A DNA stretch of 64,000 nucleotides from an uncultured Jannaschia sp. Its GTDB lineage: Bacteria > Pseudomonadota > Alphaproteobacteria > Rhodobacterales > Rhodobacteraceae. The stretch covers positions 1-64,000 of the forward strand of contig NZ_CANLTR010000005.1 in NCBI RefSeq assembly GCF_947494055.1. Reading direction: 5' to 3'. Every line of letters starts with the position of its first letter. The stretch's first letter is position 1. The notes below the pieces were generated by a model. It was not told the origin of the DNA. It searched no databases and saw only the letters and a list, made by a program, of their open reading frames with translations. The position numbers and the translations under genes are program-made. Shown here piece after piece: positions 17,554-36,395 of the stretch.

Positions 17554-17578
17554 AGAACTTCGTAAACATTTGCTTTCC

Positions 17579-18715
17579 TTACTTTTCTGGGGGTTGGTCC
17601 CCTAACCCTGCTTTCCGGTTAGGGGACGGAATTGCCGCCAGAGCGCGCTTGCGCATCCCTGACGCGGCCAATTTCGTGCGCTTCGCAGCGGCGCAGTAAC
17701 GGGATGCCTCACGTGTATTTGCGTGTCCGAGGATGGCCGCGACCTCCATCTCGGTGCCATCGGCCTCGGCTAGCATACGGGCGCCGGCCTTCCGCAGTCC
17801 GTGCGCCCGGCCGGGAACGCCAGCCTGGACGCACCAGTCCCGGAACAGATTGCCGAACGTCTCGGGCAGGTAGGGCTTGCCCACCGTGCCGTGATTCAGG
17901 AAGGTCATCGCCTTCGTCCCCGCCAGCGCCAATTCATTCGCCAGCTCGGGCAGGATCGGAATCGGGACTTCGATAACGTCTTCGGCCTGGTCTTCGGTCT
18001 TCTGACGTTCATAGACGATCAGACCGGCGCGGATGTTGCGCGGTCCCAGCTTCACCGCGTCGACCCGCGCGGCGCCGGTGTTCAACAGTAGTTCGAGCGC
18101 GAGGCGCGCCTTCGTGCCGCTCGGATGCTTGTCCCGGAAGGCTTCGATCTCGTCGTCGGTCCAGCTATGGTGACCGCCCTTCCGCATGCGCTGCGACTTG
18201 GCTAGGCGCGCCGGGTTCGGCCCCTTGAAGCCGTGGTGCTTCGCCGCCCAATCGAAGATCTGCGCGATGTCTTTCTTGAAGCGGTTCGCGGCCGCCGGAC
18301 CATCATATCGCGCCATCATGCGTTCGACGTGACCCGCTTCGATGCTCGCCAGCTTGGCCTCGGCATAGTTGCCGCGAATGCGATCGAGACGCAGCCGCTT
18401 GCCCCGCTTGGTCGAGTCGGCCAGTCCGCCCTTGGCGCGCGTCTTCGCGAACGCCTCGGACGCAAGGTAGCTCTCGATGGCATGGCCGATCGTCCCCGCC
18501 TCGGCCCGGAGCGGCGCAGGGGCTGCAACGCCCTTCTCGGCGGCGTCCTCGGCGGCGTGGTAGCCGGTGCGGAACTCATCCGAACCCCAAGGACCGGGCA
18601 GGTAGATGTCCACGACCTTGACGCCCTTGCGGACCCGCTGGAACCGCCAGCGCGCCCGCCCGTGGCGATCAGTCTCGCGGAACACGCCAGGGAAGGGATT
18701 GCGGCGCCGTGTCAT
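17579..18715 (-). CDS. int: Tyrosine integrase of the element
   Basis: A 378-aa phage-type tyrosine recombinase. The catalytic residues are visible in order: Arg in NTGAARVDAVKLG, the HxxR box in HGLRKAGARML, the second His in ILGHANT, and the nucleophilic Tyr in ASRYCAAAKR. The N-terminal half contains arm-binding and core-binding regions. Its TAA stop lies 25 nt from the attL core and is itself part of a Shine-Dalgarno sequence (TAAGGA) for the ATG at 17567-17569, which opens the attP-spanning frame. It overlaps the preceding 60-aa ORF by 4 nt and is the last gene of a four-gene operon. Confidence 0.96.
   Translation of the reverse strand: MTRRRNPFPGVFRETDRHGRARWRFQRVRKGVKVVDIYLPGPWGSDEFRTGYHAAEDAAEKGVAAPAPLRAEAGTIGHAIESYLASEAFAKTRAKGGLADSTKRGKRLRLDRIRGNYAEAKLASIEAGHVERMMARYDGPAAANRFKKDIAQIFDWAAKHHGFKGPNPARLAKSQRMRKGGHHSWTDDEIEAFRDKHPSGTKARLALELLLNTGAARVDAVKLGPRNIRAGLIVYERQKTEDQAEDVIEVPIPILPELANELALAGTKAMTFLNHGTVGKPYLPETFGNLFRDWCVQAGVPGRAHGLRKAGARMLAEADGTEMEVAAILGHANTREASRYCAAAKRTKLAASGMRKRALAAIPSPNRKAGLGDQPPEK
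17597..17627. promoter_or_regulatory. Left-arm inverted repeat, candidate integrase arm sites
   Basis: GTCCCCTAACC (17597-17607) and GGTTAGGGGAC (17617-17627) form a perfect 11-bp inverted repeat with a 9-nt spacer, inside the 3' end of int. Two further TTAGGGGA copies lie at the right end (36284-36292 and 36335-36342). Shared presence at 35-95 bp from both cores suggests arm-type integrase or directionality-factor sites. Confidence 0.55.
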
Positions 18716-18894
18716 GTCGCGCGCCCGATCATGGCGTCGATGTCGTCCATGCCGCCGCTGCCGGGATAGCAGAACTCGATGCCGTCCGGCCCTAGACGCT
18801 TGATGTAGGCGCTCGGGTTCGCCTCCCGCGCCAAGGCGAGGGCTTCGCGTACTTGTGTGGGCGTCGGCATGGACGGGGCGGCAGGGCGCGACAT
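18712..18894 (-). CDS. Small ORF upstream of integrase
   Basis: A 60-aa protein starting MSRPAAPSMPTPTQVREAL. Its ATG comes 1 nt after the stop of the upstream gene and its stop overlaps the int start, so it is tightly coupled to int. Small proteins of this style, a helix followed by a short beta stretch (IKRLGPDGIEFCYPG), often precede integrases in alphaproteobacterial prophages. A role in directionality is possible, but it lacks the basic winged helix of known excisionases. No family assigned. Confidence 0.55.
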   Translation of the reverse strand: MSRPAAPSMPTPTQVREALALAREANPSAYIKRLGPDGIEFCYPGSGGMDDIDAMIGRAT

Positions 18895-18895
18895 G

Positions 18896-19594
18896 TCAGG
18901 CAGCCCCCACTTTTGCCAAATCGTTGAGCGCATCGCCCCAAAGGGTCCGTTCAGTGAGCAGTGAGCGGCCTCGCGGGTGGATCAGCGCTCCGAAGGTCAG
19001 TCGGACGGTTGCGTATTCCGGCCCAGCTTCTTCATCGAACCAAATAGGATGCCCGTCCTCGGCAAAAGCCGACCTTCCGTGCAGTTCAATGACGATCGAC
19101 AGTCGCTCCCCGCAGACAGTCAATGTAATGCGGTCGCTCGGGTCGTGGTCGTTGCGCGGGGAATAATCCGTGAACATGCACGTCAATACGCCGACCAGAT
19201 TCTCGGGGCCGTCGAACGGATGGCGCCCGTGGGTCAAACCCAGCTTATAACGTGCGAAGTATGCCGCCACCTCGTCGGATAGAGCGTCCTTCGGGCCAAA
19301 CTGGACCGGCTTAGTGCGGCCGGGATCGTCCACTTCCAAAAGGGCCAAGGGCAGCGACCAGTAGGTATCAACAGCCTCTGCAACGTCTGTCGTTGGCCCG
19401 GGATATAGAACACATAGGAGGGCCGCCGCAAAGTCGGTGCCAACCATCATCGGGGCGCCGCGGCCTCGCCCCCCAGTTGTAAAGATGCCCGCCTTACGCG
19501 CGCGCATCACAACGGTACGGGCGCGCCCCTCTTCATCAGGGAGCGCGCCTTCAACCCATTGGGTCAGATCAGAAAGGGTTGGACGACGAGACAT
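18896..19594 (-). CDS. Hypothetical protein of the integrase operon
   Basis: A 232-aa protein I cannot assign. The N-terminal 60 residues (LSDLTQWVEGAL, VVMRARKAGIFTTGGRGRGA) look like a winged-helix or helix-wing DNA-contact segment. The remainder alternates hydrophobic strands, and no membrane segment is present. It is followed directly by the 60-aa ORF and int. It may be a regulator of the excision operon; this is inference from position only. Confidence 0.6.
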   Translation of the reverse strand: MSRRPTLSDLTQWVEGALPDEEGRARTVVMRARKAGIFTTGGRGRGAPMMVGTDFAAALLCVLYPGPTTDVAEAVDTYWSLPLALLEVDDPGRTKPVQFGPKDALSDEVAAYFARYKLGLTHGRHPFDGPENLVGVLTCMFTDYSPRNDHDPSDRITLTVCGERLSIVIELHGRSAFAEDGHPIWFDEEAGPEYATVRLTFGALIHPRGRSLLTERTLWGDALNDLAKVGAA

Positions 19595-19653
19595 ATTGAA
19601 CAGGTAGCGTAATTCTAGGACGCTGTCAATACGAACAGGTTGTTCCTTTTAGG

Positions 19654-20058
19654 TCAGTCCCTCGGCCGAAGAATATCCATCGCCTTCTCGATGCGTCCAT
19701 ACTCTGCCCGCTGGCACTCAATCAGCCGATCCGTGAGCCAGCGCATCGCGTCGCGTTCCTCCGGCATGTTCTCGGGGTCGCAGGTCTGGACCATGCTTTC
19801 GAGCGCGAACGCGATGACCTGCGCTTCGCGTAACATGCCCCCGGAATAGTAGTCGTCATCGATCCATAGCTTACGGATCGCGTCGCACTTGTCCTTCAGA
19901 TCAGTTGGCATAGTGGCACGGTAGGCGGCATCGCGGTCTCGTAAGCCCTGGGCCTTGGCCAGTTGGTCCCGATAGATGTCCTCACCGGCTAAGGCGAGGC
20001 CACTAACGCTGCGGTTCTCCCAATCGGTGACGGGGGTCGGTTCAATCGCGTTCTGCAT
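19654..20058 (-). CDS. Hypothetical protein, first gene of the integrase operon
   Basis: A 134-aa acidic, mostly helical protein (MQNAIEPTPVTDWENRSVSG, later DDDYYSGGMLREAQVIAFAL). No family recognised. GGGAG lies 9 nt before the ATG. It is the first gene read from the promoter in the divergent operator region, with the -10 and the nearer operator only about 25-45 nt upstream. Immediate-early position suggests a role in the excision/replication decision. Confidence 0.6.
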   Translation of the reverse strand: MQNAIEPTPVTDWENRSVSGLALAGEDIYRDQLAKAQGLRDRDAAYRATMPTDLKDKCDAIRKLWIDDDYYSGGMLREAQVIAFALESMVQTCDPENMPEERDAMRWLTDRLIECQRAEYGRIEKAMDILRPRD

Positions 20059-20081
20059 TGTCAGGTTCTCCCAGACAGGCT

Positions 20082-20138
20082 ATCAATGTTTTACGTTGAT
20101 AAACCTCGGTGGACGCGCCGTCAATGAAAAACGTTGAT
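20082..20138 (-). promoter_or_regulatory. Integrase-operon promoter overlapped by two operators
   Basis: Reading the minus strand, TTGACG (20119-20124) and TATCAA (20096-20101) are spaced by exactly 17 nt and form a plausible sigma-70 promoter for the integrase operon. Two 19-bp near-identical palindromic sites, ATCAATGTTTTACGTTGAT (20082-20100) and GTCAATGAAAAACGTTGAT (20120-20138), cover the -10 and the -35. The second also ends 2 nt before the ATG of the divergent HTH gene. This is the expected layout for an autoregulated lysogeny repressor. Confidence 0.7.
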
Positions 20139-20140
20139 AC

Positions 20141-20371: not shown

Positions 20372-20375
20372 ACCG

Positions 20376-21788: not shown

Positions 21789-22157
21789 TTACGCCACGAT
21801 GTCGAACAAGGCCGGGGTCAGCCTCGCCTTCGATACCGCTGGCAATGTCTTCGTCCCGTCCGGCGCCGCGTCGTTGGTCTTCGCGGTCGTTCGCAGCCAC
21901 GCCCGGTCCATCGCTTGCAGCACCGCGACGTGACGGGCTTCCAGCGGCATCCCGTAGAGCCGCGCACCGGCTTCGATCTCCATCAGCGACAGCGCCTGCG
22001 GACCGTAACCCGTGCCCTGCCGCCCGCTGCATAACGCGCAGAACAGCCGCCACAGATCGGCCCCGCCTTCGGGCACCCGGAGCATCGTTGCGGACGACAA
22101 CGTTGCTGTTACCGCCACCTCCATCCGCTCGGTGAAGCGTGCCCAGGCCGGCGTCAT
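21789..22157 (-). CDS. Small phage protein, tail-chaperone-like
   Basis: A 122-aa protein starting MTPAWARFTERMEVAV. Its central block (DLWRLFCALCSGRQGTGYGP then LSLMEIEAGARLYG) resembles short proteins encoded in tail-assembly regions of alphaproteobacterial siphophages, which are often annotated as tail assembly chaperones. The ATG overlaps the upstream gene's stop as ATGA. Unusually it lies after, not before, the tape measure gene. It is the last gene of the structural operon. Confidence 0.55.
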   Translation of the reverse strand: MTPAWARFTERMEVAVTATLSSATMLRVPEGGADLWRLFCALCSGRQGTGYGPQALSLMEIEAGARLYGMPLEARHVAVLQAMDRAWLRTTAKTNDAAPDGTKTLPAVSKARLTPALFDIVA

Positions 22158-22765
22158 CTGATCACCTGCGTCGCGTCGAAGCCCACCACGTAGAGCAGGC
22201 CGGAGACACGGGTCAGGGTCACGCCGCCAGCGTCGAGGCGCAGCTCCATCGGCGGGTTCTTCAGCTTCGCCGTCTGCCCGACCTTCACGGACACCCGGAG
22301 CGCCGGGCTGCACTCGATCCACGCCGACAGGCCGGTGGAACTGACCGGCCCGCCCTTCGTCAGCCGTACGAACTCGAAGCCGCCCGCGTCGGTCTCGATC
22401 GAGACGTGATCGCCTTCCGTCAGGTCCAGTCCTTCGGGCAGGCCCGTGATCCGAAGCGCCCCGCGATCCGAACGGACGGAATGGATGGTCGCCGATCCGA
22501 GGCCGCCGGACCTGTAGCGCGCCGGTTGCGGGCGTTGCGCGGGATGGCCGGTGAACGTGCCTAGCGAGCCGCGCAGCGCCATCATCTTCGCCTCGAAGGC
22601 TTCCGCCTCGTCCTTCGGCATCGGCCCCGACTGGTAGGAGGTGTGCCAGAGCATCGGTCCCAGGTCGCGAACCTGCACCTGATTATTCGAGCGGAACGTC
22701 TCCTGACGCCACATCGGGCGGAAGTCGGCGATCTCCCATTCGATTCCTGTCGTCATATCCATCAT
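22154..22765 (-). CDS. Phage tail protein, distal-tail-like
   Basis: A 203-aa beta-rich protein (IEWEIADFRPMWRQETFRSN, then FEAKMMALRGSLGTFTGHP). This style is found in phage tail proteins encoded just after the tape measure, where the distal tail protein usually sits. It overlaps the tape measure stop by 4 nt. No adhesion-tip or fibre gene follows. The family assignment is by position and general pattern only. Confidence 0.55.
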   Translation of the reverse strand: MMDMTTGIEWEIADFRPMWRQETFRSNNQVQVRDLGPMLWHTSYQSGPMPKDEAEAFEAKMMALRGSLGTFTGHPAQRPQPARYRSGGLGSATIHSVRSDRGALRITGLPEGLDLTEGDHVSIETDAGGFEFVRLTKGGPVSSTGLSAWIECSPALRVSVKVGQTAKLKNPPMELRLDAGGVTLTRVSGLLYVVGFDATQVIR

Positions 22766-25119
22766 CGAACGATCCTCTGCGTGGCGCCGCGGTTGCCCGA
22801 CTGGCGAAGCGTCTGCATGACCACGCCCGGCCCGTCCCGGCGCATCGTGTTCCCCGCCTCGCGTTTGGCGATCGGCGCGGCGCGCTGGTCGATCTTGGCG
22901 TCGAGCATGTCGGACTTCAGGTCGACGGCGACGCGGACATCGACGGCCTGCGATCCGCCACCGGGCAGCGACGGCATCCGACCGCTGTTCAGGGATTCCA
23001 TCATCTCGCGCGCACCCGGCATCCGCATGGCGCCCGCGTTCAGGACGCCTTCACGGCCATGCACGACACCCGCGATCCGGTCTTCGGGCACGTTCCCGGT
23101 ATAGCCGCCCGATGCGAAGCCCAGCATCCCGCCGATTGCCCCGAAGACCCCGCCCCCCGCACCGGAGGCCAGCCCTTGGAAGCCGCGCAGCATCTGCATC
23201 CGGGCGAACTCGGTCAGCAGCGAAGCCAGTGCGTCCTTCGCCTTCATCGACCCGTCGAGGATGCCGCCGAAGATGTCGGCCACCTTCGTCGCCCCGGCCT
23301 CGGCGCGTTCCTCGACCCGTTGCAGATCGTCGGCCGCCTGTTCCGCCGCATCGCCTGCGCGGGCGTAGGACTCGGCCAGCTTGTCGATCTCGGCTTCGAG
23401 TTGCGGCGTGATCTTCGTGCCCTGTTCCTGCGCCGCCTTCAGCAGCTCGGCCTTCTTGCGGGCGTATTCGAGCGCATCGCCCACGTCGCGGCCGGTCTCG
23501 GCCAGCACGACCAGCGCCGTCGCCTCGGCTTCCAGTTCGCGGATTTCCTGTTGCGTGCCCTCCAGCGCCTCGCGCCAGACATCCACCGGCGCGCGGCCAC
23601 TGCCGCCCCCACCGCCCGAACTGGCCGCCGGAAGGTCGGGAACGCCGATCTCGAAGGGCGCCGGTCGGGGCCGGGACGACGACGAAGGCGCAAGCTCGGA
23701 CGAAGAGCCGCCAGTCCCGTATTGACGCGGATCGCCCCGCGTGCCGACTTCGCCGTAGACGCCCGGCGCCGCCTGACCGGACGCATCGCCACCGGGCAGG
23801 CTCGCCCTCAGCTCGCGGGCGCGGGTGATGGCTGCGCCAAGTCGTCCGACGAAGGCATCGAGGGCGGATGACACCGAACCAAACTGCACCCCGTCGATCG
23901 CCGACACCTCCGACAATGCCGTTTGCGCGGTGCGGGCCAGCGTGCCCATAGCAACCTCGAAGGTCTCCGCCCCGATCTTGCCCGCATCGAGGTCCGTGGC
24001 GAGTTCGGTCATTTCCGTGGCGATGCTGTTCAGTTCGCCGGCGGCGTCCGTCTCGCCCAGCATCGCGAGATTGCCCGCCACCTGGAACAGCGGGCCGGCC
24101 AGACCGGCGGCTTCGTCGGCCAGCCGGAAGTACTCAGAGCGAAGGGACTCCAGTTTCGCCCGGTGCGCGTCGACCGCATCGCTGTCATTGTCGAGCGTGT
24201 CGGCGATGCCCTCGCCCAGCAACGCGCGGGCCTGTTCGGGATTGGCGAAGAGGTCATCGAGGTCCGTGCGCAGCGTCGCGATCTTCACCGCCGCGTCCGC
24301 CAGCCCGACCGCCAGTTCCTTGCCAAAGGTCGAGACGCGGGTCGTGAGTGCCTGGAACCGCCGATCCAGCTCTTCGGCCTTCTCGATCAGTTCCGCGTCG
24401 AGGACGGCCCCGGTTTCGCGTGCGGTCTGGATGGTCTTGCGCAGCGCGGCCTCGCCCTGTCCCATCAGTTGCACGAACTGCTCGCCGCCAGTGCCGCCGA
24501 AGATTTCATCGGCAATGCGGATCTGCGCGGCGGCATCCAAGTCCTCCATCCGCCCGATGATTTCGAGCATCAGGTCGGACGGGTCTTCGAGCTTGCGCGT
24601 CAGGTCCGTGGCGCCGTAGCCCAGCCGCGCGAACGCCTCGGCCGCCGGCCCCTTGCCGGTCACGATGAACTCGTCGGCGCGCAGGTTCAGTTCCTTCAGG
24701 CCGTCCGTCAGGGCATCGACGCCGATCCGGTTCTGCTCGGCGACGAACTTCAGTTCCTGGAACGCCTCGACGCTGACACCCGCCCGCCTGGCTTCCGCGC
24801 CAAGTTCCGCCACCGCCGCCGTCGCCCCGCGCACGCCCCGCACGATGCCGGTCAGCGCCACGGCTGCACCGCCCGCAAGAAAGCCTCCGGCGAAGGCCCG
24901 GCCGAAGGCGCCGATCTTCGTGGAGGTCGCCGCGAGCGCCTGGTTGATGCGCGAGGTCGACCGCAGCATGTCGGTTTCCATGCGCTTCGTTGCCCGTGAC
25001 GATCCGCGTTCCAGGCCCTGATAGGATCGGGTGCCAGTGCGTTCGGCCTTCTCCATCCGCTTCTCGAACTCGCGGACGCGGGCTTCGAGGTAGACCACCA
25101 GTTGTTCGTCGCTGCTCAT
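22762..25119 (-). CDS. Phage tape measure protein
   Basis: A 785-aa, largely helical protein with an N-terminal coiled coil (residues about 5-60) and a Gly/Ala-rich hydrophobic stretch (FGRAFAGGFLAGGAAVALTG). A second coiled region covers about 520-620, and the C-terminus is the typical GFASGGYTGNVPEDRIAGVV. Such proteins fix the length of siphovirus tails; at roughly 0.15 nm per residue it would set a tail of the order of 120 nm. Its presence argues against a pure capsid-only satellite. GGAGG precedes the ATG. It follows terL by 9 nt, an unusual adjacency. Confidence 0.9.
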   Translation of the reverse strand: MSSDEQLVVYLEARVREFEKRMEKAERTGTRSYQGLERGSSRATKRMETDMLRSTSRINQALAATSTKIGAFGRAFAGGFLAGGAAVALTGIVRGVRGATAAVAELGAEARRAGVSVEAFQELKFVAEQNRIGVDALTDGLKELNLRADEFIVTGKGPAAEAFARLGYGATDLTRKLEDPSDLMLEIIGRMEDLDAAAQIRIADEIFGGTGGEQFVQLMGQGEAALRKTIQTARETGAVLDAELIEKAEELDRRFQALTTRVSTFGKELAVGLADAAVKIATLRTDLDDLFANPEQARALLGEGIADTLDNDSDAVDAHRAKLESLRSEYFRLADEAAGLAGPLFQVAGNLAMLGETDAAGELNSIATEMTELATDLDAGKIGAETFEVAMGTLARTAQTALSEVSAIDGVQFGSVSSALDAFVGRLGAAITRARELRASLPGGDASGQAAPGVYGEVGTRGDPRQYGTGGSSSELAPSSSSRPRPAPFEIGVPDLPAASSGGGGGSGRAPVDVWREALEGTQQEIRELEAEATALVVLAETGRDVGDALEYARKKAELLKAAQEQGTKITPQLEAEIDKLAESYARAGDAAEQAADDLQRVEERAEAGATKVADIFGGILDGSMKAKDALASLLTEFARMQMLRGFQGLASGAGGGVFGAIGGMLGFASGGYTGNVPEDRIAGVVHGREGVLNAGAMRMPGAREMMESLNSGRMPSLPGGGSQAVDVRVAVDLKSDMLDAKIDQRAAPIAKREAGNTMRRDGPGVVMQTLRQSGNRGATQRIVR

Positions 25120-25128
25120 TCTCGCCTC

Positions 25129-27125: not shown

Positions 27126-27448
27126 GCTGCCGCCCTCCCGCGTGTCACGCAGCGCAGCTCCAGCACCCGGCCCCGTTCAATTTCCACGATGTCCGTGATG
27201 TCGTGGGCCACGTCGCGGAACAGCACCCGGTCCTCGCTCGTGAGGTCCGCCATCCATCGGATACGGAAGACGGCCATGCGCTTTTCGGTATCGCCGCCCG
27301 CCGCAAGGAACTCTCCCGCCGATTGCGCCACCACTTCGGCCCGCAAACGCAGGTGATCGGTCCAGAGCGTTTCCGGCGTGCCGACATCGTTCGCGGCGTA
27401 GCTTGCCCGCTGCACGACGATCAGCCGATCGAGCTTGCCCGCCCTCAT
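27122..27448 (-). CDS. Phage head closure protein
   Basis: A 108-aa protein with the SPP1 gp16-like pattern: MRAGKLDRLIVVQR, LWTDHLRLRAEVV, MAVFRIRWMADLTSEDRVLF, and a final DIVEIERGRVLELRCV. It would seal the connector after packaging. It overlaps the DUF3168 gene upstream and terS downstream by 4 nt each. Confidence 0.85.
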   Translation of the reverse strand: MRAGKLDRLIVVQRASYAANDVGTPETLWTDHLRLRAEVVAQSAGEFLAAGGDTEKRMAVFRIRWMADLTSEDRVLFRDVAHDITDIVEIERGRVLELRCVTRGRAAA

Positions 27449-28262: not shown

Positions 28263-28591
28263 CAGAACGTCCAGTCCCGGTATTCGGCGACGATCTCGCG
28301 CACGCCGAAGGGCACTTCCGCCGTCCGGTCGCCAACCGTCGCCGCCTCGCGTTGCAGGAACCACCAGGCGGCGAGTTGAAGGATCGCCGTTTGCAGAGGT
28401 TCGGGTAGCGGCTCCCTCGGGGCAGGTCCGTAGAAGTCTTCGAGGCGCCAGCCCAGCAACTTCTCGACGTAGACCTGCGCCGCCCAGGCCGTGCGGTTCA
28501 GGACGGTGGCATCCACGTCGCGCATGTCCTCCGTGAAGCTCAAGTGCTCCCGGAGGGCTTCCGCGTTGACGTAGAACTGACCATTCGCCAT
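28262..28591 (-). CDS. Head-tail connector protein (gp6-like)
   Basis: A 109-aa helical protein of the HK97 gp6 adaptor type (LREHLSFTEDMRDVDATVLN, AAQVYVEKLLGWRLEDF, QTAILQLAAWWFLQREA). It forms the ring bound under the portal. Located 4 nt after the tail-tube gene. Confidence 0.85.
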   Translation of the reverse strand: MANGQFYVNAEALREHLSFTEDMRDVDATVLNRTAWAAQVYVEKLLGWRLEDFYGPAPREPLPEPLQTAILQLAAWWFLQREAATVGDRTAEVPFGVREIVAEYRDWTF

Positions 28592-28595
28592 CGCG

Positions 28596-29066
28596 TCAGC
28601 TCGCGTTCTTCCGAACGACGTTGCTGTTCACCCAGAGCGACAGGTTCAGCTTCATCACCGAACTGGCCGTGTCGAGGGCTTCCGCCGCGCTGCCGACAAT
28701 GGCGCCGAACTTGCGCTCCGAGCCAGTCCCGCCGCCGGTCGCATCGTTGAACACCACCTTGAAGGCGTAGTTGTCCTGCGTCTTCTCGGCGGCGAGGGCG
28801 GCTTGCTGGCCTTCGTCGTCGTAGTCGATGCCGCAAACCACCTCCATCGTGCCCGCGTCGCGAACGCCTTTCAGCTTCTTGCGACGCTGGCGGTTGATGG
28901 CGTCGAAGGTCACCGGCTCGGCCGCGTCTCCGACCGATCCGAGGGCTTCGGTTTCCTTGATCTCTTTCCAGGTCTGCGAGGTGAAGTCGTCCTCGGCCAG
29001 TTCGTCGGTCACGTCGATGACGCCGCCGATGTAGAGCTTGGCCCCGGCCGTCGCGAAGATGGTCAT
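28596..29066 (-). CDS. Phage tail tube protein
   Basis: A 156-aa beta-rich protein (MTIFATAGAKLYIGGVIDV, GTMEVVCGIDYDDEGQQAAL, ending VMKLNLSLWVNSNVV). This is the pattern of siphovirus major tail (tube) proteins. It overlaps the HNH gene by 4 nt. In standard HK97-type maps this gene follows the tail terminator, whereas here it precedes the connector genes. Confidence 0.82.
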   Translation of the reverse strand: MTIFATAGAKLYIGGVIDVTDELAEDDFTSQTWKEIKETEALGSVGDAAEPVTFDAINRQRRKKLKGVRDAGTMEVVCGIDYDDEGQQAALAAEKTQDNYAFKVVFNDATGGGTGSERKFGAIVGSAAEALDTASSVMKLNLSLWVNSNVVRKNAS

Positions 29067-29422
29067 TGTCTCGTTCCTTCCATGCCGCGGCGTTCTTCAC
29101 GCTGTTTCGCGGAGTTGTGGTCGCGGGCGCACAAGGCTTGCCAGTTCGTGCGGTCCCAGAACTTCTGCATGTCCCCGCGATGCGGGATGCGGTGATCCAC
29201 GACCGTCGCCCGCGCGCCGCAGCGGACGCAGAACGGATGCTGGTCGAGGTATTCCCGGCGTGCCCGGTCCCACGCCCCCGTGTAGCCGCGTGCCGAAGAC
29301 GAAGGCCGCTTGGCGTCGTGCCGGGCCTTGCGTGCGCGGTCGCGATCCACGGTGCAGGCGCAGCGCGTCCCCGAAGGAACCACCTTCCCGCATCCGCAGA
29401 CCTTGGGGGGCTTCGTGGGCAT
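29063..29422 (-). CDS. HNH endonuclease
   Basis: A 119-aa protein with a zinc-ribbon-like start (CGCGKVVPSGTRCACT) and an HNH core (HPFCVRCGARATVVDHRIPH, WQALCARDHNSAK). HNH proteins of HK97-type phages assist terminase cleavage at cos or pac sites and usually lie next to terS; here it is between capsid and tube genes. Confidence 0.88.
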   Translation of the reverse strand: MPTKPPKVCGCGKVVPSGTRCACTVDRDRARKARHDAKRPSSSARGYTGAWDRARREYLDQHPFCVRCGARATVVDHRIPHRGDMQKFWDRTNWQALCARDHNSAKQREERRGMEGTRQ

Positions 29423-29424
29423 CG

Positions 29425-29808
29425 TCAGACCGGCCGCTCGGCGAGGTCGCCCATGACGGCCACGGCGGATGCCGCGATCGACGTACCGCTGGCCTTCGTC
29501 AGCACCAGTCGCACGAACCGCTTGTGGCCGTGGTAGCCGATCCGGTAGGCGCTATCGCCTTCGAGCGGCAAGGCCGCGTCGCTGTCGATCCATTGCGCAT
29601 CCGCATCCGCGAAGTCGCCGCCGGCCGACGTGTCGGCTTCCTGCACCTTGGCGGTGAAGCTGCCGGACCCCGCGATTGCCCCCGTGGTGATGACAAAGGC
29701 CATCCGGTTGCAGTCGCGAAGGTCGATGGCCGGGCCAGTCTTGTTGCCGGCCAGCACCTCTGGCGAGACGGCGACCTGCGCCGCGATGTTCGATTTCATG
29801 TCACGCAT
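29425..29808 (-). CDS. Phage virion protein, possible decoration or connector
   Basis: A 127-aa beta-rich protein (MRDMKSNIAAQVAV, FVITTGAIAGSGSFTAKVQE, GYHGHKRFVRLVLTKASGT). Similar proteins occur just after the capsid gene in alphaproteobacterial phages. The function is not established. GGAGGG lies 7 nt before the ATG. Confidence 0.6.
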   Translation of the reverse strand: MRDMKSNIAAQVAVSPEVLAGNKTGPAIDLRDCNRMAFVITTGAIAGSGSFTAKVQEADTSAGGDFADADAQWIDSDAALPLEGDSAYRIGYHGHKRFVRLVLTKASGTSIAASAVAVMGDLAERPV

Positions 29809-29821
29809 GGTTCAGCCCTCC

Positions 29822-30961
29822 TCAGGCGGCAATCTTGAGCTTGCGGAACTTGGCGGCCTGGATGACGCGGCCACCGACGCGACGGGTCGCGTGGATGCGG
29901 GTCATGCCGTTCGTCGCCAGAAGGTACGGGTTGACCAGGATCGACAGCGCCGTGTGATCCACGATGCGGTAGCCGGACCAGTCGCCATAGACGATCGGGG
30001 TCGCGTTCGCTTCGAGGTCCGGCATGTCGACCATCTCGACCACGGGACGGCCCAGGATCGTCTCGGGCTGTCCAAGCTGGAACGACGGCTGCCACAGGAA
30101 TCGGCCGTCGCCATCCTTCAGAAGCCGGATCGCCGCAAGCGTGGTGCTGTTCAGCGCCCAGGCGCCCCGGTTCCGGTACATGGCCGGAAGCTGGTACATC
30201 AGCGCGACCAGCGCGTCGGCGGTCAGGCCCGTGGCGCTGCCGGAGTTGAACTCCTGGATGCTCGGGTCGCGAAGGATGCCCAGGGGGGCAAGGATGCCGT
30301 CGCCACCCACGAAGGCCATGCCTTCCTTCTGACCGAAGTCCTCGGCGAGTGCCGCGCGAACTTCCGCCTCGGCCTGGCCCGCGCTGTCGGACAGCAGTTC
30401 GTTCGACAGGTCGACGTAGGTGTCGAGCGATTTGATGTCGACTTCGGCCTGCGCGAAGGCCGGCTCGCTCGGCTGTTGCGGCATCGTCTCGCCGCGCCAC
30501 CGGGCATTCGTGATCTCCGTACGGCGCGGGTAGATGACGGAGGGCGACGACGTGCTGCGCACGCTGGCGAACTGGCGGATCGGCGACACCTCGACCAGAT
30601 CCTTGATGATCTCCGACGCCATCTCCGGCGGGGCGAGATAACCGGCCTTCGGGTCCTGGAGCGTCGTCAGGGCCTTCAGCACGTCCGGGCCGGCATCGTT
30701 GCCCTTCGCCAGATAGGCACTGAACGCCTTGCGGATTTCCGAAGGCTCTTTGTCGGCCTCGCGCGCACCCTTGGCGCGGTTCGTCTTCGCCTCGATCCGG
30801 TCCAGACGCTCGACAAGCGCGGACGTGTCGGCGGCCTTCTCGACCTTCGACAGCCGGTCCTCGACCTTGCCGGTGAAGTCCTCGATCGCCTTCGTCACGA
30901 TGTCGTCGGGCGTGTCCTCTTCGGCCTTTCGGACGAACGTGTTGTGGTCCTGATAAGTCAT
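29822..30961 (-). CDS. Major capsid protein, HK97 fold
   Basis: A 379-aa capsid subunit. Residues about 15-85 are a charged coiled-coil delta domain (IEDFTGKVEDRLSKVEKAAD) of the kind that acts as internal scaffold and is removed by the protease. The HK97 body begins near GYLAPPEMASEIIKDLVEVS and includes LGRPVVEMVDMPD and ILVNPYLLATNGMTRIHATR. The ATG overlaps the protease stop as ATGA. Confidence 0.93.
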   Translation of the reverse strand: MTYQDHNTFVRKAEEDTPDDIVTKAIEDFTGKVEDRLSKVEKAADTSALVERLDRIEAKTNRAKGAREADKEPSEIRKAFSAYLAKGNDAGPDVLKALTTLQDPKAGYLAPPEMASEIIKDLVEVSPIRQFASVRSTSSPSVIYPRRTEITNARWRGETMPQQPSEPAFAQAEVDIKSLDTYVDLSNELLSDSAGQAEAEVRAALAEDFGQKEGMAFVGGDGILAPLGILRDPSIQEFNSGSATGLTADALVALMYQLPAMYRNRGAWALNSTTLAAIRLLKDGDGRFLWQPSFQLGQPETILGRPVVEMVDMPDLEANATPIVYGDWSGYRIVDHTALSILVNPYLLATNGMTRIHATRRVGGRVIQAAKFRKLKIAA

Positions 30962-31467
30962 TCTGTCCTCGTGAGTTGCGCCGCAGCGCGGTGGAGTGCT
31001 GTCGCGAGCTGAAGCGCACGCACGGCGGATTTCGCGGACGCGACCTGCGCGCCCGGATGGCAGGGGAAGGTGACCAGGCTGCATTCCATCAGCTCCAGGT
31101 CGGTGATCGTCCGGCCGCCGCCCTTGCGCTTGCTGGCGGACTTCGTGCGGAAGCCGATCGAAACGCCCCGGACAGCCCCGGCCCGGACCAGCGCCCGAAC
31201 CTCGCGGGCGCGGTGAACGTCCTCGACCAGAAGCCGGCCCTTCAGGTGCAGGCCGTCCTCGCGTTCCTCGCCGGCCGACCAGACGCCCACAGGGTCGTTC
31301 GGATCGTGGCCGAACAGCAGCGGGATCGGGAATGATGCGGAAGCGAACGCCCCCTTGGTGATGACATCGCCTACGCGGTCGGGTGTCGCGAAGGACCAGG
31401 CAATCGCCTCGATTTCGCCGTCGCTATTCGCTTCGAACTTCGTCTCGATCAGCAGCCGGTCCATCAC
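30958..31467 (-). CDS. Prohead protease (HK97 family U35)
   Basis: A 169-aa serine protease that trims the capsid delta domain. Catalytic blocks LLFGHDPNDPVGVW (His) and RGVSIGFRT (Ser) are in the right order, followed by ITDLELMECSLVTFP. It sits between portal and capsid genes as usual. Confidence 0.92.
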   Translation of the reverse strand: MMDRLLIETKFEANSDGEIEAIAWSFATPDRVGDVITKGAFASASFPIPLLFGHDPNDPVGVWSAGEEREDGLHLKGRLLVEDVHRAREVRALVRAGAVRGVSIGFRTKSASKRKGGGRTITDLELMECSLVTFPCHPGAQVASAKSAVRALQLATALHRAAAQLTRTE

Positions 31468-31853
31468 GCACCCCCTCGGTGGGCGGCGCGGTCGCTGGCG
31501 TAGGCGTCGATTTGCGCCTCCACCCAGGTCGCGGCGCGGATCAAGCGAATGACGTTGGCCGTGTTGAAGGGTACGGGCTGGCCGTCCTCATCGCATTCCC
31601 AGCCCAGCACGCAGCGGGCGAGGTTGGCGATGCGGGCCTTCTCGCGGTTCTCCGACGACACCCGGCCGTCGATGTCCGACATCTCGACCAGATCGTCGGC
31701 CAGCCGCAGACGTGCCTTGCGCTGCGTCTCGCTGTCCGGCCCGGCAATGCGCAGGCGGATGCCCGTGGGCCTGCCGGTCAGCGGATCGGCAAGGACGAAC
31801 CACGCGCCCCGCTCCTGGTCTTCGGACATGGCGATGATGTCATTCAGTTGCAT
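31464..31853 (-). CDS. Hypothetical phage protein
   Basis: A 129-aa protein (MQLNDIIAMSEDQERGAWFV, GRPTGIRLRIAGPDSETQRK) rich in helices, with DAYASDRAAHRGGA at the end. It looks like head-assembly proteins encoded between portal and protease that carry no established function. The second of two adjacent ATGs was chosen, because GGAGG is 4 nt upstream of it. It overlaps the protease gene by 4 nt. Confidence 0.65.
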   Translation of the reverse strand: MQLNDIIAMSEDQERGAWFVLADPLTGRPTGIRLRIAGPDSETQRKARLRLADDLVEMSDIDGRVSSENREKARIANLARCVLGWECDEDGQPVPFNTANVIRLIRAATWVEAQIDAYASDRAAHRGGA

Positions 31854-32110
31854 CATGCCTCCACCGGGTTGGCGGCAGTGAAGAACACGGTGCCGGACCC
31901 TTTGACCCAGAGGTGTTCGCCGTCTTCGAGGGCGAAGGATTGGTTGGAGTAAGGCGACAGGCGATGCCCGCCCTTCAGGGTCGGGGCCGTTGTGCCCTCG
32001 CTCACGATCCAGAAGAGATAATTGCCGGACTCGTTGGCAACGGTAACGGTGCCGCCTGCGGCAATGCGCGACCATTCCCCTTCGAGTACGCGCATCTTCG
32101 TTTCAGCCAT
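31853..32110 (-). CDS. Hypothetical small beta-rich phage protein
   Basis: An 85-aa protein (MAETKMRVLEGEWSRIAAGG, FALEDGEHLWVKGSGTVFFT). The pattern suggests a single beta-sandwich domain; a head-decoration or fibre-stub role is possible but unproven. It overlaps the portal gene by 8 nt and the next gene by 1 nt. Confidence 0.6.
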   Translation of the reverse strand: MAETKMRVLEGEWSRIAAGGTVTVANESGNYLFWIVSEGTTAPTLKGGHRLSPYSNQSFALEDGEHLWVKGSGTVFFTAANPVEA

Positions 32111-33308
32111 CGGTGCCCTTCTGCGCGTCGGTCGGCGCGGTCTGGATGTTCGGATTGACGAAGGTCTCGCCGCCCGCACGCGGGGGCAGTCCGAGCCATC
32201 CCCGGCCTTCGTTCGGATTGATGACCTGCGCCGCGATCAGGCTGTTGATGACCGTCGAGCGGGTGGACAGGTCGGCGCGGGTAAGGTCGTCGCGATCGAA
32301 CCGGACGGCGTGGTCGGCCCGCTCTTCGGGCGTGAAGAGGGCACGGCGGAACGCGCCTTCAGCGGCCCGCAGCCAAGGCTCCAGGCAGTAGGACAGGAAC
32401 TCGACGCCCATCTGCTCAGTGTTCGACCACGTTGCCCGGTCCAGCTCGAAGAGCATGGTCGGCGGGACGCGGAACGCACGGGCGACTTCCAGCACCTGGA
32501 ACTTGCGGTTCTCCAGGAACTGCGCGTCCGTCGAGTTGAAGGTGAACGGGTCGAACTCGGCGCCATCGTACAGGATCGCCGTGCGGCCCCCGGCGTCGTC
32601 GCCTTCGTGGGTGGCACGCCAGGCGGCGCGTGCCTTCCGCACGCTGTCCTCGCCCATACCCTTCGGGAACTTCAGCGCACCGGACGGGCGGGCACCGCGA
32701 CCGAAGAGTCGGGCGGCGTGACGGTCGAGGGCGGCAGCCGTGCCGATCGCGTCCCGGTAGAGGGTCAGCGGGGAACGCCCGAACGGGCTGCGCAGGTGGA
32801 TGAAGTCGCGGGCGGGCTGGATGTCGCCGTCGATCTTGTAGGTCGGTTCGCCGGTCGCGGTGTCGAAGTCCACGGAGACGATGCCGCGTTGATAGCGGAC
32901 GATCTCCTGCACCTCGCCGCGCACGCGGTTGACGTGGGCGAGGCCACCGACATCGCTCGACAGGGCGTCGATGACGAGGTCGCGGATCAGCTCGAAGCCC
33001 GATGTCCAGTCGTTCGCCGCATCCCGCAGGAACGGCAGCGCCGGGTGGCCGGGAAGCGGGGTCTCGTTGCCTGCCGCGTCGATGCGCTTCACATGCACGT
33101 CGAGGGTCGCGACGGCTTCCGAGATGACGCGGATCGCGGACCCGACAGCCGGAACCTTCAGCGCTGCTTCGGGCGTCAGGACGATGCCGGAGGTCGCGGT
33201 CGGAACAATGCCGAACAGGGCGTAAAGGTCATCGTCAGGCGTCGCCAGACCTTTCGCCTCGGGGGCGATGGTCGGCTCATCGGGCGGAGTACGGCGGAAC
33301 CAGCTCAT
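32103..33308 (-). CDS. Portal protein (HK97 family)
   Basis: A 401-aa protein that forms the dodecameric DNA-entry ring. Family blocks are AVGSAIRVISEAVATLDVHV, HLRSPFGRSPLTLYRDAIGT, FQVLEVARAFRVPPTMLFEL and the C-terminal NEGRGWLGLPP. It is the first gene of the late block on the minus strand. The ribosome site is weak. A hairpin lies 38 nt upstream. Confidence 0.94.
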   Translation of the reverse strand: MSWFRRTPPDEPTIAPEAKGLATPDDDLYALFGIVPTATSGIVLTPEAALKVPAVGSAIRVISEAVATLDVHVKRIDAAGNETPLPGHPALPFLRDAANDWTSGFELIRDLVIDALSSDVGGLAHVNRVRGEVQEIVRYQRGIVSVDFDTATGEPTYKIDGDIQPARDFIHLRSPFGRSPLTLYRDAIGTAAALDRHAARLFGRGARPSGALKFPKGMGEDSVRKARAAWRATHEGDDAGGRTAILYDGAEFDPFTFNSTDAQFLENRKFQVLEVARAFRVPPTMLFELDRATWSNTEQMGVEFLSYCLEPWLRAAEGAFRRALFTPEERADHAVRFDRDDLTRADLSTRSTVINSLIAAQVINPNEGRGWLGLPPRAGGETFVNPNIQTAPTDAQKGTDG

Positions 33309-34077: not shown

Positions 34078-34087
34078 GTGTCCCGCG

Positions 34088-35482
34088 TCACCCATTGCCG
34101 GGCACCTCGGGCCGGTTGATCGTCACGCCCTGCCAGCCGCGATAGGTCTTGCCGCTTATCTTCCGGGGCATGTCCCGCAGCCCCTGACGACGCAGCCGGG
34201 GCGCCATGCTCTTGGCAGTTCCAGGCTCTTCGCCGTTCGACTTCGCGTAGTCCGTCCAGTTCCTGAAAAGGTCCGCGCTGGTCTCCCAACGATGTTCGTT
34301 CCCCGGTTCCAGAATACAGGCATCATCCAGCCATTGCCGCACGAGGTCCTGTTCGCCGAAATAGTTGGCCGTGGCGTCGACCACGCTCTGCGGCCGCTCC
34401 AGGCCCTCACGCCGCCAAGCAACGGCCCCCCCGATCATCCAGCGTAGGATGCCGGGCCATTCGACGCGCAGCTTCGCCTCCAGCTCCCTGTCGGGCTGCT
34501 CGGGCTTCACGGTGAACGGCACGATGTTGAACCGCCGCCGTGCCGCTTCATCGACGTTCGCCAGCGCAGGCGCATGGTTTCCGACAATCGTCAACTTGAA
34601 CGCGGGCGTGTAGGTGAAGAAGTCCTGCCGCATGAAACGAGCGGAGATAGGGTCGCCGCCGGTCATCTGCTTGATGCGGGCTTCGGCCCATGCCCGGCCT
34701 TCCTCCGTCTCTGAGGCGGACACCAGACGCGCCCCACGTAGCAGGGCAAGCTCTGTCGGGTGCTTGTCCCCGCGCGAGGCGGTGAACGTGTCCATCGCTG
34801 CCGTGGTGGCATAATCGCCCATGATCCGGGTGACGGTGTTCAGAAAGACGGACTTGCCGTTCCCACCGGGGCCATAGAGGAAGATCAGGGCATGTTCCCG
34901 TGTGTCGCCCGTGAGGCAGTACCCGCACCAGCGCCGAAGGAACTCGATCATCCCCGCGTCCCCACTGGTCGCTTCGGTCAGGAAGCGCATCCAGGTCGGG
35001 CAGTCCGGCACCAGCGAGGGCGCCACGGCCGCACGCTTCGTCAGACCGCTGGCCGGTTCCGGGTCGAGAGCGTCGCCGGTGCGAAGGTCGATGGCACCGC
35101 CCGGCACGCCAAGGATGAAAGGGTCCTGGTCCCATTCGTCCTGCCGGACCGCGTGCGCTCGATCCGACCGGGCAAACGCCTCGACGCCCCCGGCGAACCC
35201 ACGTTTCCGCACCCGTTCCTTGACGCGCTCCGGCGTGCCTTCCGACAGTTCGCGAGCGACACGACGACACCACGAGAACGCAAGGTCGGTCCTGTCGATC
35301 CGCCAGTGATCTCCGGTCCATTCGTACCACGCGCCGACATCGTGGTCGAAGCGCAGCCGGTCCCGAAACCGCTCGGAAAACGCCAGCGCCACGCCGTCTT
35401 CGGTCAATTCGACATCTTTCGCCCGAATGTCCTCGGCCCCGGCTGCGCGGGCGCGGTCTTCCAGATCAGCAAACTTGTTCAT
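34088..35482 (-). CDS. P4-type primase/SF3 helicase
   Basis: A 464-aa replication protein. The N-terminal region resembles the D5_N domain (DRLRFDHDVGAWYEWTGDHW and PGGAIDLRTGD). The SF3 helicase core has Walker A GPGGNGKSVF, followed by FTASRGDKHPTELALLRGAR and TPAFKLTIVGNHAPAL, with VDEAARRRFNIVPF as the SF3 arginine-finger region. It would load at the adjacent repeat cluster. The ATG (MNKFADLEDR) with GGAGG 5 nt upstream was chosen. It overlaps the preceding gene by 17 nt. Confidence 0.92.
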   Translation of the reverse strand: MNKFADLEDRARAAGAEDIRAKDVELTEDGVALAFSERFRDRLRFDHDVGAWYEWTGDHWRIDRTDLAFSWCRRVARELSEGTPERVKERVRKRGFAGGVEAFARSDRAHAVRQDEWDQDPFILGVPGGAIDLRTGDALDPEPASGLTKRAAVAPSLVPDCPTWMRFLTEATSGDAGMIEFLRRWCGYCLTGDTREHALIFLYGPGGNGKSVFLNTVTRIMGDYATTAAMDTFTASRGDKHPTELALLRGARLVSASETEEGRAWAEARIKQMTGGDPISARFMRQDFFTYTPAFKLTIVGNHAPALANVDEAARRRFNIVPFTVKPEQPDRELEAKLRVEWPGILRWMIGGAVAWRREGLERPQSVVDATANYFGEQDLVRQWLDDACILEPGNEHRWETSADLFRNWTDYAKSNGEEPGTAKSMAPRLRRQGLRDMPRKISGKTYRGWQGVTINRPEVPGNG

Positions 35483-35891
35483 CGCCGCCTCCATTCGAGA
35501 CGTGGGCAATGAAGTCCTGCCGATCCGCCATGTTCAGGGCGCGAAACGCCGTAAGCGCATAGGCGCGAAGCTCGTCATCGGTCGCAGCACCCGCCCACAG
35601 GGCGGCATCCTGAAGGGCGTTGTCGAAGGGCGCCGGAGGCAAGCCCGCTCCACGCTGACCGACGTAAAGAATGGTCCGCAGCTCGTCGTCCGGCAAAGTC
35701 TCGGCCATCATCAGGGTGACCGCCCCGCGCTCGCGCAGGGTCAGCCGTTTGGTCATGACAGTGGCGAAGTCCTGCCAGGTATCCGCGCAGTCGGACGCCA
35801 GCGCATAGCCCAGCATCCGGGCGGCGCCCTTGTGCCGGTCTTGAATATGACGACCGCGATTGACGCGACGGATCGGGGTGAGCGCGTTCAT
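35466..35891 (-). CDS. Hypothetical protein of the replication operon
   Basis: A 141-aa helical protein (MNALTPIRRVNRGRHIQDRH, AARMLGYALASDCADTWQDF, LRERGAVTLMMAETLPDDEL). No family recognised. The ATG overlaps the upstream stop as ATGA and the 3' end overlaps the primase start, so it is translated with the replication genes. Confidence 0.6.
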   Translation of the reverse strand: MNALTPIRRVNRGRHIQDRHKGAARMLGYALASDCADTWQDFATVMTKRLTLRERGAVTLMMAETLPDDELRTILYVGQRGAGLPPAPFDNALQDAALWAGAATDDELRAYALTAFRALNMADRQDFIAHVSNGGGDEQVC

Positions 35892-36103
35892 CGCTGCGCC
35901 CCCCATTCGGGGCAAACGATCTCGGCCGTCGGAAGGTAGGCGCCGCTTCCGCAGGCGTAGTCGCGCGCGAAGTCCACGGCTTCCTGATGGCGAAGAAAGG
36001 CTCCGACCGTTTCGCCGCTGTCGCGGTGTTCGTCCCAATGAATGACGGCGTAAGGCTCGCGCCAGTTTAAGAACGCGATCTCGATGATGCCGGGGTGTCT
36101 CAT
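35888..36103 (-). CDS. Small hypothetical protein of the replication operon
   Basis: A 71-aa protein (MRHPGIIEIAFLNWREPYAV, ETVGAFLRHQEAVDFARDYA). It resembles short orphan phage proteins with a beta pair and a helix. GGAGG lies 8 nt upstream of its ATG, and that ATG overlaps as ATGA the stop of the frame that runs in from attR. It is thus the first complete gene of the right-hand operon in the integrated state. Confidence 0.6.
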   Translation of the reverse strand: MRHPGIIEIAFLNWREPYAVIHWDEHRDSGETVGAFLRHQEAVDFARDYACGSGAYLPTAEIVCPEWGAQR

Positions 36104-36281
36104 GCCGCCGCCTCCAGCCCGAAATGCCGGGCGAGAATCGGGAATTGCCTTGCGAGAAAGCCCGATTTGGGGCTATCCTCGGAAGTGATCAGGCTACCAA
36201 TCTGACCAGTTTCAGCGCCGCTTCCGATGCCAGTCGGGGCGGCGTTTTCCGTTCCATCGTCAGGTGGAACTGCGCAGCAGC

Positions 36282-36342
36282 GCTTAGGGGACAGGCCGAT
36301 TTCGTAAGCGTCTTCAACGGCCCTTACCGACGGGTTAGGGGA
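36282..36342. promoter_or_regulatory. Right-arm TTAGGGGA sites
   Basis: TTAGGGGAC at 36284-36292 and GGTTAGGGGA at 36333-36342 repeat the sequence of the left-arm inverted repeat (17597-17627). They lie 35-95 bp inside attR and within the split ORF. Candidate integrase arm-type or directionality-factor binding sites. Confidence 0.5.
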
Positions 36343-36377
36343 GGCTAAGTCGCGGACGGAATAAAGGTTTCCATCCT

Positions 36378-36395
36378 TCCTGCCGGGATCACCAC
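36378..36395 (+). other. attR core (18 bp)
   Basis: TCCTGCCGGGATCACCAC, identical to 17536-17553 at the 3' end of tRNA-Arg. It marks the right limit of the element; host DNA with the phoA control region begins immediately to the right. Confidence 0.93.

Follow-up and report, generated by a model that had tools for sequence, protein, structure and literature searches.

The window, the whole stretch of 64,000 nt that was analysed, contains a tRNA-Arg gene occupied by an 18.8-kb phage-like element, and the 18-bp attachment core is present in the window in two copies (Table 1). At the int end, the minus strand reads TAAGGA-AAGCAA-ATG, with TAA serving as the int stop codon. The split frame with a Shine-Dalgarno (SD) sequence and an ATG directly after int, as described in the initial annotation, was borne out base by base. 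At the opposite end, the right part of this frame runs from 36393 down to 36100, giving 97 codons from the first whole core codon and 91 codons wholly past the core; the open frame was thus as annotated, whereas its length had been put at about 94 codons. The TGA of the right part overlaps the ATG at 36103 as ATGA. In the lysogen, no ATG, GTG, or TTG opens the right part, and none of the ORFs of at least 60 aa listed for 14000-40000 ends there, in agreement with the claim that it has no start of its own. When the ends were joined across attP, one ORF of 103 codons was recomputed, the number given before, and the left stub in the lysogen was seen to read antisense through tRNA-Arg as proposed, for 54 codons. 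attP in the window is inside an open reading frame, and integration removes the 5’ end of this frame, not the 3’ end.

Table 1. Features of the element and its integration site (positions in the window; an empty strand cell marks a feature without strand)
Feature	Position	Strand	Remarks
tRNA-Arg (CCT), integration site	17476..17552	+	ARAGORN; 3’ end overlaps core
Left core copy, int side, TCCTGCCGGGATCACCAC, 18 bp	17536..17553		sequence match
5’ stub of attP-crossing frame	17554..17569	-	ATG 17569-17567; five codons including ATG plus one base, then core
Shine-Dalgarno TAAGGA	17576..17581	-	overlaps int stop codon; ATG 6 nt further on
Tyrosine integrase (int)	17579..18715	-	reads toward tRNA; ends in TAA
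Inverted arm-type repeat GTCCCCTAACC/GGTTAGGGGAC	17597..17627		in 3’ end of int
Three ORFs upstream of int, same direction (18712-18933, 18896-19594, 19654-20058)	18712..20058	-	ORF list
Operator-like repeats	20074..20139		between leftward operon and divergent HTH gene; two 28-nt copies 71% alike
HTH_3 repressor-like protein, 76 aa	20141..20371	+	30.1 bits, cut-off 23
Head and tail genes	22154..33308	-	products in text
Replication primase/helicase (D5_N, DUF5906)	34088..35479	-	domain matches
Second right-hand gene (MNALTP...), ~141 aa	35466..35891	-	ATGA with 71-aa gene; start chosen by eye
First right-hand gene, 71 aa	35888..36103	-	no Pfam match; own GGAGG site 7 nt upstream
Crossing frame, right part	36100..36393	-	97 codons and stop; no start codon; ATGA overlap with next gene
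Arm-type copy CTTAGGGGA	36283-36291		one mismatch; inside crossing frame, ~87 nt from core
Arm-type copy GTTAGGGGA	36334-36342		inside crossing frame, ~36 nt from core
Right core copy, TCCTGCCGGGATCACCAC, 18 bp	36378..36395		sequence match

The int-end operon points out of the element toward the same-strand genes at the opposite end. Its three ORFs upstream of int gave no Pfam or PHROG match. The repeats next to it include inverted arms of 19 nt (20081-20099 and 20121-20139) that are 84% complementary. A promoter had been proposed at 20.1 kb; the adjoining repeats were found, but the promoter candidate matched at 9 of 12 positions, which is chance level (1 found, 1.3 expected). The right-hand operon had been said to have no visible promoter, and a consensus scan of 33200-36700 indeed gave no minus-strand match, although a promoter there may escape such a scan. 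AT-rich host DNA adjoins attR (36404-36440), and a promoter there could read into the element. The head and tail genes encode terminase small and large, portal, S78 protease, capsid, HNH, major tail, adaptor, tail terminator, tape measure, and distal tail products. An HTH_17-like gene in the right operon (33734-33964) is a possible excisionase, which would be awkward if this operon is silent in the lysogen.

Relatives were gathered by bait searches, from which the best 80 of 177, of 464, and of 568 were taken. Type B comprises the 19 elements, the window included, whose attP separates int from the replication genes. In the 19 sister elements of type A, attP lies upstream of int; this set was uncollapsed, with the near-duplicates L140/L178 and L196/L200 and the more distant primases L358-L360 and L362 at 35-39% identity. 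An automatic rule scored a crossing frame when it was open for at least 90 nt past the core, and coupling when its stop overlapped a next start. A first, cruder rule based on the longest right frame had given 11/17 (p = 0.008); it scored four elements wrongly, since in L031 and L143 a different right frame was longer and in L159 and L209 equal SD scores led to a neighbouring ATG. Since the rule was revised after this first test by a spacing term and the coupling criterion, the resulting 14/17 and 12/17 were not blind, and its unchanged application to the type-A set and two later type-B elements is the cleaner test. Dropped before the counts were L348 (same locus as L155), L206 (same as L185), the 13-bp second row of L202, and duplicate entries or entries whose tRNA lies at the opposite end (L184, L197, and second rows of L202 and L352). 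Elements with a type-B-like place of int or tRNA in which no core was located were left uncounted (L022, L066/L305, L166, L182, L187, L261, L267, L271, L293, L295, L317, L354, L364, and L365). L208, possibly a remnant at just 3 kb in length, and L123, with int on the opposite strand, were retained.

A crossing frame was present in 15/19 type-B elements versus 2/19 type-A elements (Fisher 4.7e-5), and its stop was coupled to a next start in 13/19 versus 0/19 (Fisher 1.0e-5). The frame of L167 reaches its coupled stop only after 772 codons; without this element the coupled count was 12/19 (Fisher 3.7e-5). Permuting the right ends of the 19 type-B elements gave a mean of 7.4 frames versus 15 observed (p = 1e-5) and 5.8 coupled frames versus 13 (p = 1.7e-5), with values for L318 and L347 entered by hand and later confirmed by the rule. 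The expectation that the joined ends of related elements keep the frame open held for 14 of the 18 other type-B elements; the four without it were L145, L232, and L347 at tRNA-Gly and L155 at tRNA-Thr. An SD match of at least 4 bases preceded 14 of the 15 crossing starts, L236 having none. Sequences of 8 nt common to both sides of the core numbered 102 versus 11.2 expected (18/19 elements). In the primase tree (18 type-B and 19 type-A rows, with L125, L128, L136, L148, L154, and L158 assigned to type A by int position without a located core), the two types were interspersed and at least five changes were forced. The window element belongs to a family of small elements resembling phage satellites, mostly of Alphaproteobacteria, with attP between int and the replication genes and within what would be a single operon in the circle. 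Anatomy and comparison show that the first replication-side frame has its start codon and, as a rule, an SD match on the int side of attP, that it is open through the core and the arm-type repeats, and that its stop usually overlaps the next start.

The elements at tRNA-Phe differ in the phase in which the frame reads the tRNA, GGT-GCC in L031, L159, L167, and L209 and TGG-TGC in L141 and L143, and their right ends follow this phase. In L209 the same core has a second int (27% identical) immediately to its left, and an ATG that follows this second int reads across the core in frame in natural, unjoined DNA. L123 has a divergent int, yet an SD match and a start lie across attP from its Prim-Pol gene. 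The crossing sequence is the 5’ end of the primase gene in L123 (Prim-Pol) and L167, the 5’ end of the protein encoded just before the primase in L015, L137, and L208, and a leader of 45-65 codons in six other relatives; in L138 it is a frame of 151 codons starting from TTG. It is not conserved as a protein and doubles as arm-type repeat DNA around attP. The initial description of a gene spanning attP applies to a frame joining the int and replication operons, but rarely to a gene for a conserved protein. Coding scores were weak: the crossing frame beat the other two forward frames in 10/15 elements, and all 15 scored within the bottom quarter of windows from real genes. Most type-B relatives measure 8.5-12.3 kb. 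Capsid genes were detected in the window, L015, L138, and L318; the window and L015 have their own capsid, protease, portal, and terminase (the L015 portal below Pfam’s cut-off), and a tape measure gene is also found in L318. Near int, L155 scored 33.5 bits for HTH_17 (cut-off 27) and L138 17.7 for AlpA (cut-off 21), with weaker matches in L137, L167, and L318; no gene of this type was found at int in L141 or L015, nor among the three leftward ORFs of the window.

A homologue search had been suggested for seeing whether att splits the crossing product in other copies, and it yielded no convincing homologue in phage records or family genomes. The crossing ORF had no relative at E <= 1e-3 in a pattern scan of viral contigs and nothing better than E = 1 among 50,697 phage records, and its 12 matches at E <= 0.01 in 394 family genomes were the query genome and others at E 2e-4 or worse. 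It had no Pfam match and matched no repressor family. The integrase used as bait gave no match in viral contigs. A search for free or circular genomes with an intact attP found no end repeats of the tested lengths in 80 viral loci (L014-L093), many of them partial contigs; L020 and L021 have 11,014 identical bases in common, which does not establish circularity. No close isolated phage was found, the best of 546 records at E <= 1e-40 having 48% primase identity.

The crossing-frame anatomy is well supported and is a recurrent design among type-B elements. The best reading, which we give a probability of about 0.6 from sequence comparison, is that int, attP, and the replication genes form one operon that integration would cut from its start signals. 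In the circle, the promoter that serves int, and in some relatives also a candidate gene of HTH_17/AlpA type that overlaps int, would transcribe the replication genes as well, and the crossing frame would carry ribosomes across attP. Integration at the 3’ end of the tRNA would place the start signals at the opposite end of the element, where they point antisense into the tRNA, and would leave the replication operon without them. Since the start signals would be displaced by integration, replication would be coupled to excision with no repressor devoted to the replication genes, and we infer that integration could itself be the off-switch.

That the open frame is a meaningless product of chance and compactness, with attP adjoining int in a G+C-rich genome, is disfavoured and very improbable. 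For a single element the probability of such a frame is not tiny, 4/19 type-B elements are without it, and the cruder first rule reached only p = 0.008; against this stand the permutation value (p = 1e-5), the 0/19 coupled frames in the type-A control, and the phase variants, in which the two sides of the core agree. It is also improbable, if less so, that the frame encodes a regulatory protein of the circle only, such as an activator or anti-repressor, whose product rather than position matters. The 103 codons of the window frame, which outscores the other two forward frames, and the long frame of L138 would fit such a protein, but the searches of viral contigs, phage records, family genomes, and Pfam argue against it, and unrelated sequences take its place in other elements.

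A third explanation is unlikely but deserves more weight than these two: the frame would be an anti-polarity leader only, keeping ribosomes on the transcript through attP and hairpins, while the replication genes also have their own promoter, fired in the lysogen by a helper or stress signal, and integration is not the switch. The short, unconserved crossing sequences of the six relatives are consistent with it, as is an 11-bp inverted repeat without mismatches, some 28 nt upstream of the crossing start codon, which forms a hairpin in the predicted RNA (z -2.0; 6/200 shuffles as good). Several next genes, like the 71-aa gene of the window, have their own SD, and the right part contains an internal ATG, GTG, or TTG in 11/15 crossing frames and is free of any in only 4/15 (window, L031, L138, and L159), so translation need not depend on the crossing frame. 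However, within 120 bp to the right of the core, the top-scoring promoter-like site was weaker, not stronger, in type B (mean z -0.59 versus +0.54 in type A, p = 0.003), and the scan of 33200-36700 in the window found no promoter match on the minus strand.

If the reading of an operon cut by integration is true, site-specific integration would itself act as a genetic switch by parting replication genes from their promoter, ribosome site, and start codon, and this would explain how small satellites avoid in-place replication. A broader and more tentative proposal, for which the odds fall slightly short of even, is a repressor-free latch that evolved repeatedly: attP would separate the body of the replication operon from its start signals, in some elements within the primase gene itself (L123 and L167). 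The replication genes would then be silent in the integrated element and come on automatically upon excision, sparing the host chromosome harmful replication in place. A simple sequence test applies to any mapped element, namely whether a frame with an int-side start crosses attP, and the type-A sisters can serve directly as controls.

Several known systems resemble parts of this arrangement. Among phage-inducible islands, the capsid-forming type (cf-PICIs) and the classical PICIs come close. The cf-PICIs are not known to carry tail genes and obtain tails from a helper, whereas the window element, at 18.8 kb, has tape measure, major tail, and distal tail genes. The likeness lies in int, primase (DUF5906 in the window), own capsid genes, and, in some elements, a candidate HTH_17/AlpA-like gene at int, classes that excerpts of the PICI literature list as int, primase, own capsid genes, and AlpA (PMC10111431). 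The main cf-PICI hosts named in the excerpted source are not Alphaproteobacteria (PMC10803314), and no description of an attP-crossing frame was found in the excerpts of this literature. In the KplE1 prophage, the intS promoter overlaps attL, according to part of PMC2951348. This too is a prophage gene controlled through an att site, but an int promoter on attL is nearer to type A, whereas here attP is on the replication side of int. The lambda sib element depends on attP. With int/sib retroregulation, for which sib is mentioned in part of PMC2951348, the element has in common that int is transcribed toward attP and that circle and prophage have different sequences beyond attP on the transcript. 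The sib element feeds back on the expression of int, whereas here a downstream operon would be entered by a coupled frame. In integration-dependent immunity of BPs and related mycobacteriophages, attP lies inside an ORF and integration alters the gene as part of a genetic switch, as the excerpted account has it (PMC4557955). The likeness is attP within an open reading frame. There the repressor is shortened at its 3’ end to the prophage form, whereas in the window the loss falls on the first frame of the replication side, at its 5’ end with the ribosome site and start codon. This split frame has no match to a repressor family, and the HTH repressor candidate lies elsewhere. In the circularisation-dependent transcription of Tn916, transcripts from one end reach the transfer genes at the opposite end only in the circular form. 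The window element likewise has an outward operon at one end facing same-strand genes at the other, but here a reading frame and its start codon also span the joint, the sites are tRNA genes, and the target is replication.

The 18.8-kb element was integrated at the 3' end of a tRNA-Arg (CCT) gene, and a start codon directly past the stop of its integrase gene (int) opened a frame with 5 codons (ATG counted) and 1 base ahead of the core. Right of the core, the frame matching this left stub was open for 91 codons and ended in a TGA overlapping the ATG of a 71-aa gene, which had a Shine-Dalgarno (SD) sequence of its own and an ATGA overlap with the following gene; that gene in turn overlapped the primase gene (D5_N and DUF5906, Pfam). 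Beyond the primase came genes for portal, protease, capsid, terminase, and tail proteins, with no change of strand. The ORF listing of the window contained no start codon (ATG/GTG/TTG) for the right-hand frame in the lysogen, host DNA included. The claim of the initial annotation that a single frame spans attP and joins the int side to the replication side agreed with the base-level positions in the window.

Features of the element and its right host flank in the window
Feature	Position	Strand	Remark
Core, copy 1	17536-17553		18 bp
Core, copy 2	36378-36395		18 bp
int	17579-18715	minus	reads toward tRNA
Start of crossing frame	ATG 17569-17567	minus	SD TAAGGA, then 6 bases, then ATG; directly past int TAA
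Fic/DOC protein	within 20628-21469		201 aa; Pfam 64 bits
Head and tail genes	22154-33308		
HTH_17-like gene, right operon	33734-33964		18.1 bits, below cut-off
Host DNA adjoining attR	36404-36440		AT-rich, palindrome-like
Promoter-like match, host flank	36404-36431	plus	ahead of long ORF
Long ORF, host flank	36523-38097	plus	

Head and tail genes were present in two elements of 17-19 kb, that of the window and the related locus L318. Both carried a tape measure gene, and major tail, tail terminator, and distal tail genes were also found in the window; no lysis, baseplate, or fibre genes were recognised among the scanned proteins, a subset of the ORFs of these two elements. The Fic/DOC gene, beside the repressor region, was preceded by a 78-aa ORF without a PHROG match, and the two possibly form a toxin-antitoxin pair.

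The window primase was used as bait to collect related loci from IMG/VR (the best 80 of 177 and the best 80 of 568), from a one-genome-per-species collection (the best 80 of 464), and from whole genomes, and cores at tRNA 3' ends were located by script. Two layouts were found among the primase relatives. In type A the core lay immediately upstream of int, in the order core-int-primase; in type B the core lay upstream of the primase, and int was at the opposite end of the element, directed into the tRNA (except in L123, where int was divergent). Core pairs were located in 19 type-A and 19 type-B loci, the window among the latter, and type B used tRNAs for Arg, Phe, Thr, Leu, Ala, Gly, Cys, Met, and Lys. 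The primase tree intermixed the two types and required a minimum of five changes between them, indicating that attP moved across int, or that int-att modules were swapped, several times. One locus, L208 (G051, 2010-5077), had 3 kb between 48-bp cores and little besides the crossing ORF, primase, and int; it is either a remnant or a minimal element.

For each locus, the start codon with the best SD match at -60 to +8 of the core was chosen and its frame followed through the core. The frame was called open if it continued for at least 90 nt beyond the core, and coupled if its stop lay in the interval from -20 to +4 around the start codon of an ORF at least 60 aa long. Under this one rule, applied to 17 type-B elements and two later ones, 15/19 were open and 13/19 coupled (12 without L167, whose frame ran for 772 codons before the stop that counted as coupled). 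Under the identical rule only two of the 19 type-A elements were open, both without an SD, and none was coupled (Fisher, p = 4.7e-5 for open and 1.0e-5 for coupled; 3.7e-5 for 12 versus 0). When the right ends of type-B elements were permuted, the means were 7.4 open and 5.8 coupled (p = 1e-5 and 1.7e-5), and after near relatives were collapsed to 16 elements, 14 were open and 12 coupled (permutation p = 4e-5 and 2e-5). Since the rule had been altered after a cruder version (11/17), the comparison with type A is the fairer test. Joined ends that fail to keep the frame, which the initial annotation had named as counting against its proposal, occurred in four type-B elements, L145, L232, and L347 (tRNA-Gly, 49-52-bp cores) and L155 (tRNA-Thr); the others, the window included, kept it.

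Phase across the core was matched between both sides rather than fixed. The tRNA-Phe core was read GGT-GCC in L031, L159, L167, and L209 and TGG-TGC in L141 and L143, both from Gluconobacter, with the phase of the right ends changing accordingly. In L209 (oriented with the primase on the plus strand), a second int, 27% identical to the element's own, lay immediately left of the core at about 1600-1890, apparently belonging to a tandem element, the rest of which extends to the contig end. An ATG after this second int, 11 codons and 2 bases ahead of the core, opened a frame identical in phase to that of the element's own start, crossing this core and ending at the same stop, and this junction is natural chromosomal sequence. 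In L123, where int was divergent, a start codon about 100 bp away from it (by a crude gene call) led across attP into a Prim-Pol gene. The int frame itself ran through the core in five tRNA-Phe elements (L159, 16358-17572; L031, L141, L143, and L167), in a frame other than that of the crossing ORF, so that the last integrase residues would differ between lysogen and circle.

The crossing frames encoded nothing constant. Sequence matches among loci started well right of the core, and the frame was the Prim-Pol gene in L123, the primase gene in L167, the protein encoded immediately ahead of the primase in L015, L137, and L208, a leader of 45-65 codons in six elements, and a frame of 103-151 codons in L138, L236, L318, and the window. 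No convincing homologues of the window crossing ORF were found in viral contigs, phage records, family genomes, or Pfam. The right part contained an internal ATG, GTG, or TTG in 11/15 elements (none in the window, L031, L138, or L159). By codon score the crossing frame beat the other two forward frames in 10/15 elements, but every one of the 15 ranked in the bottom quarter of real-gene windows. The crossing DNA seems to have a second job. The 8-mers that recurred on both sides of the core (130 bp on the left, 150 bp on the right) numbered 102, versus 11.2 expected from shuffles, and were present in 18/19 type-B elements; hits fell at +75 to +92 in 15 elements and at +28 to +38 in nine, as would be expected of integrase arm sites. 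In the window the shared motif was GTTAGGGGA, with one pair of copies near the end of int (its 3' end) and another pair in the crossing frame (one copy with a mismatch); it was not commoner than chance over the whole window, and four of its five places were in these two regions.

From this arrangement we infer that int, attP, and the replication genes would form one operon in the circle. Promoter, ribosome site, and start codon would all lie on the int side of attP, and the crossing frame would convey ribosomes over attP and pass them to the next gene via the stop-start overlap; integration would part the halves, with the start signals then facing antisense into the tRNA. The promoter proposed at 20.1 kb in the window is a guess, prompted by repeats that lie between divergent genes. 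Alternatively, transcription of the right-hand genes could start at a promoter not recognised here or enter from the host flank. Within 120 bp right of the core, the strongest promoter-like site scored below shuffles in type B (mean z -0.59; -1.91 in the window) and above them in type A (mean z +0.54; B versus A, p = 0.003), which supports the operon model beyond anatomy. Against that model, if the right operon were silent, its HTH_17-like gene would not be readily available for excision. In several relatives an HTH_17- or AlpA-like gene overlapped int (above the Pfam cut-off in L155, below it in the others), and with one operon in the circle, excision and replication functions could therefore share one transcript, ordered by recombination itself.

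Transfer genes of Tn916 are an example of circle-only transcription. For mycobacteriophages it is established that integration changes the repressor gene, in which attP lies (PMC4557955). Full-text searches, mostly of openly available papers, found no description, among the titles and abstract openings listed, of an open frame across attP or of circle-only expression at a replication operon. The available text of PMC4490671 deals with satellite phage-plasmids, not with an attP-crossing frame at the replication operon, and the main hosts of cf-PICI named in that of PMC10803314 are not Alphaproteobacteria. The elements described here are like capsid-forming satellites, but the window element bears tail genes.
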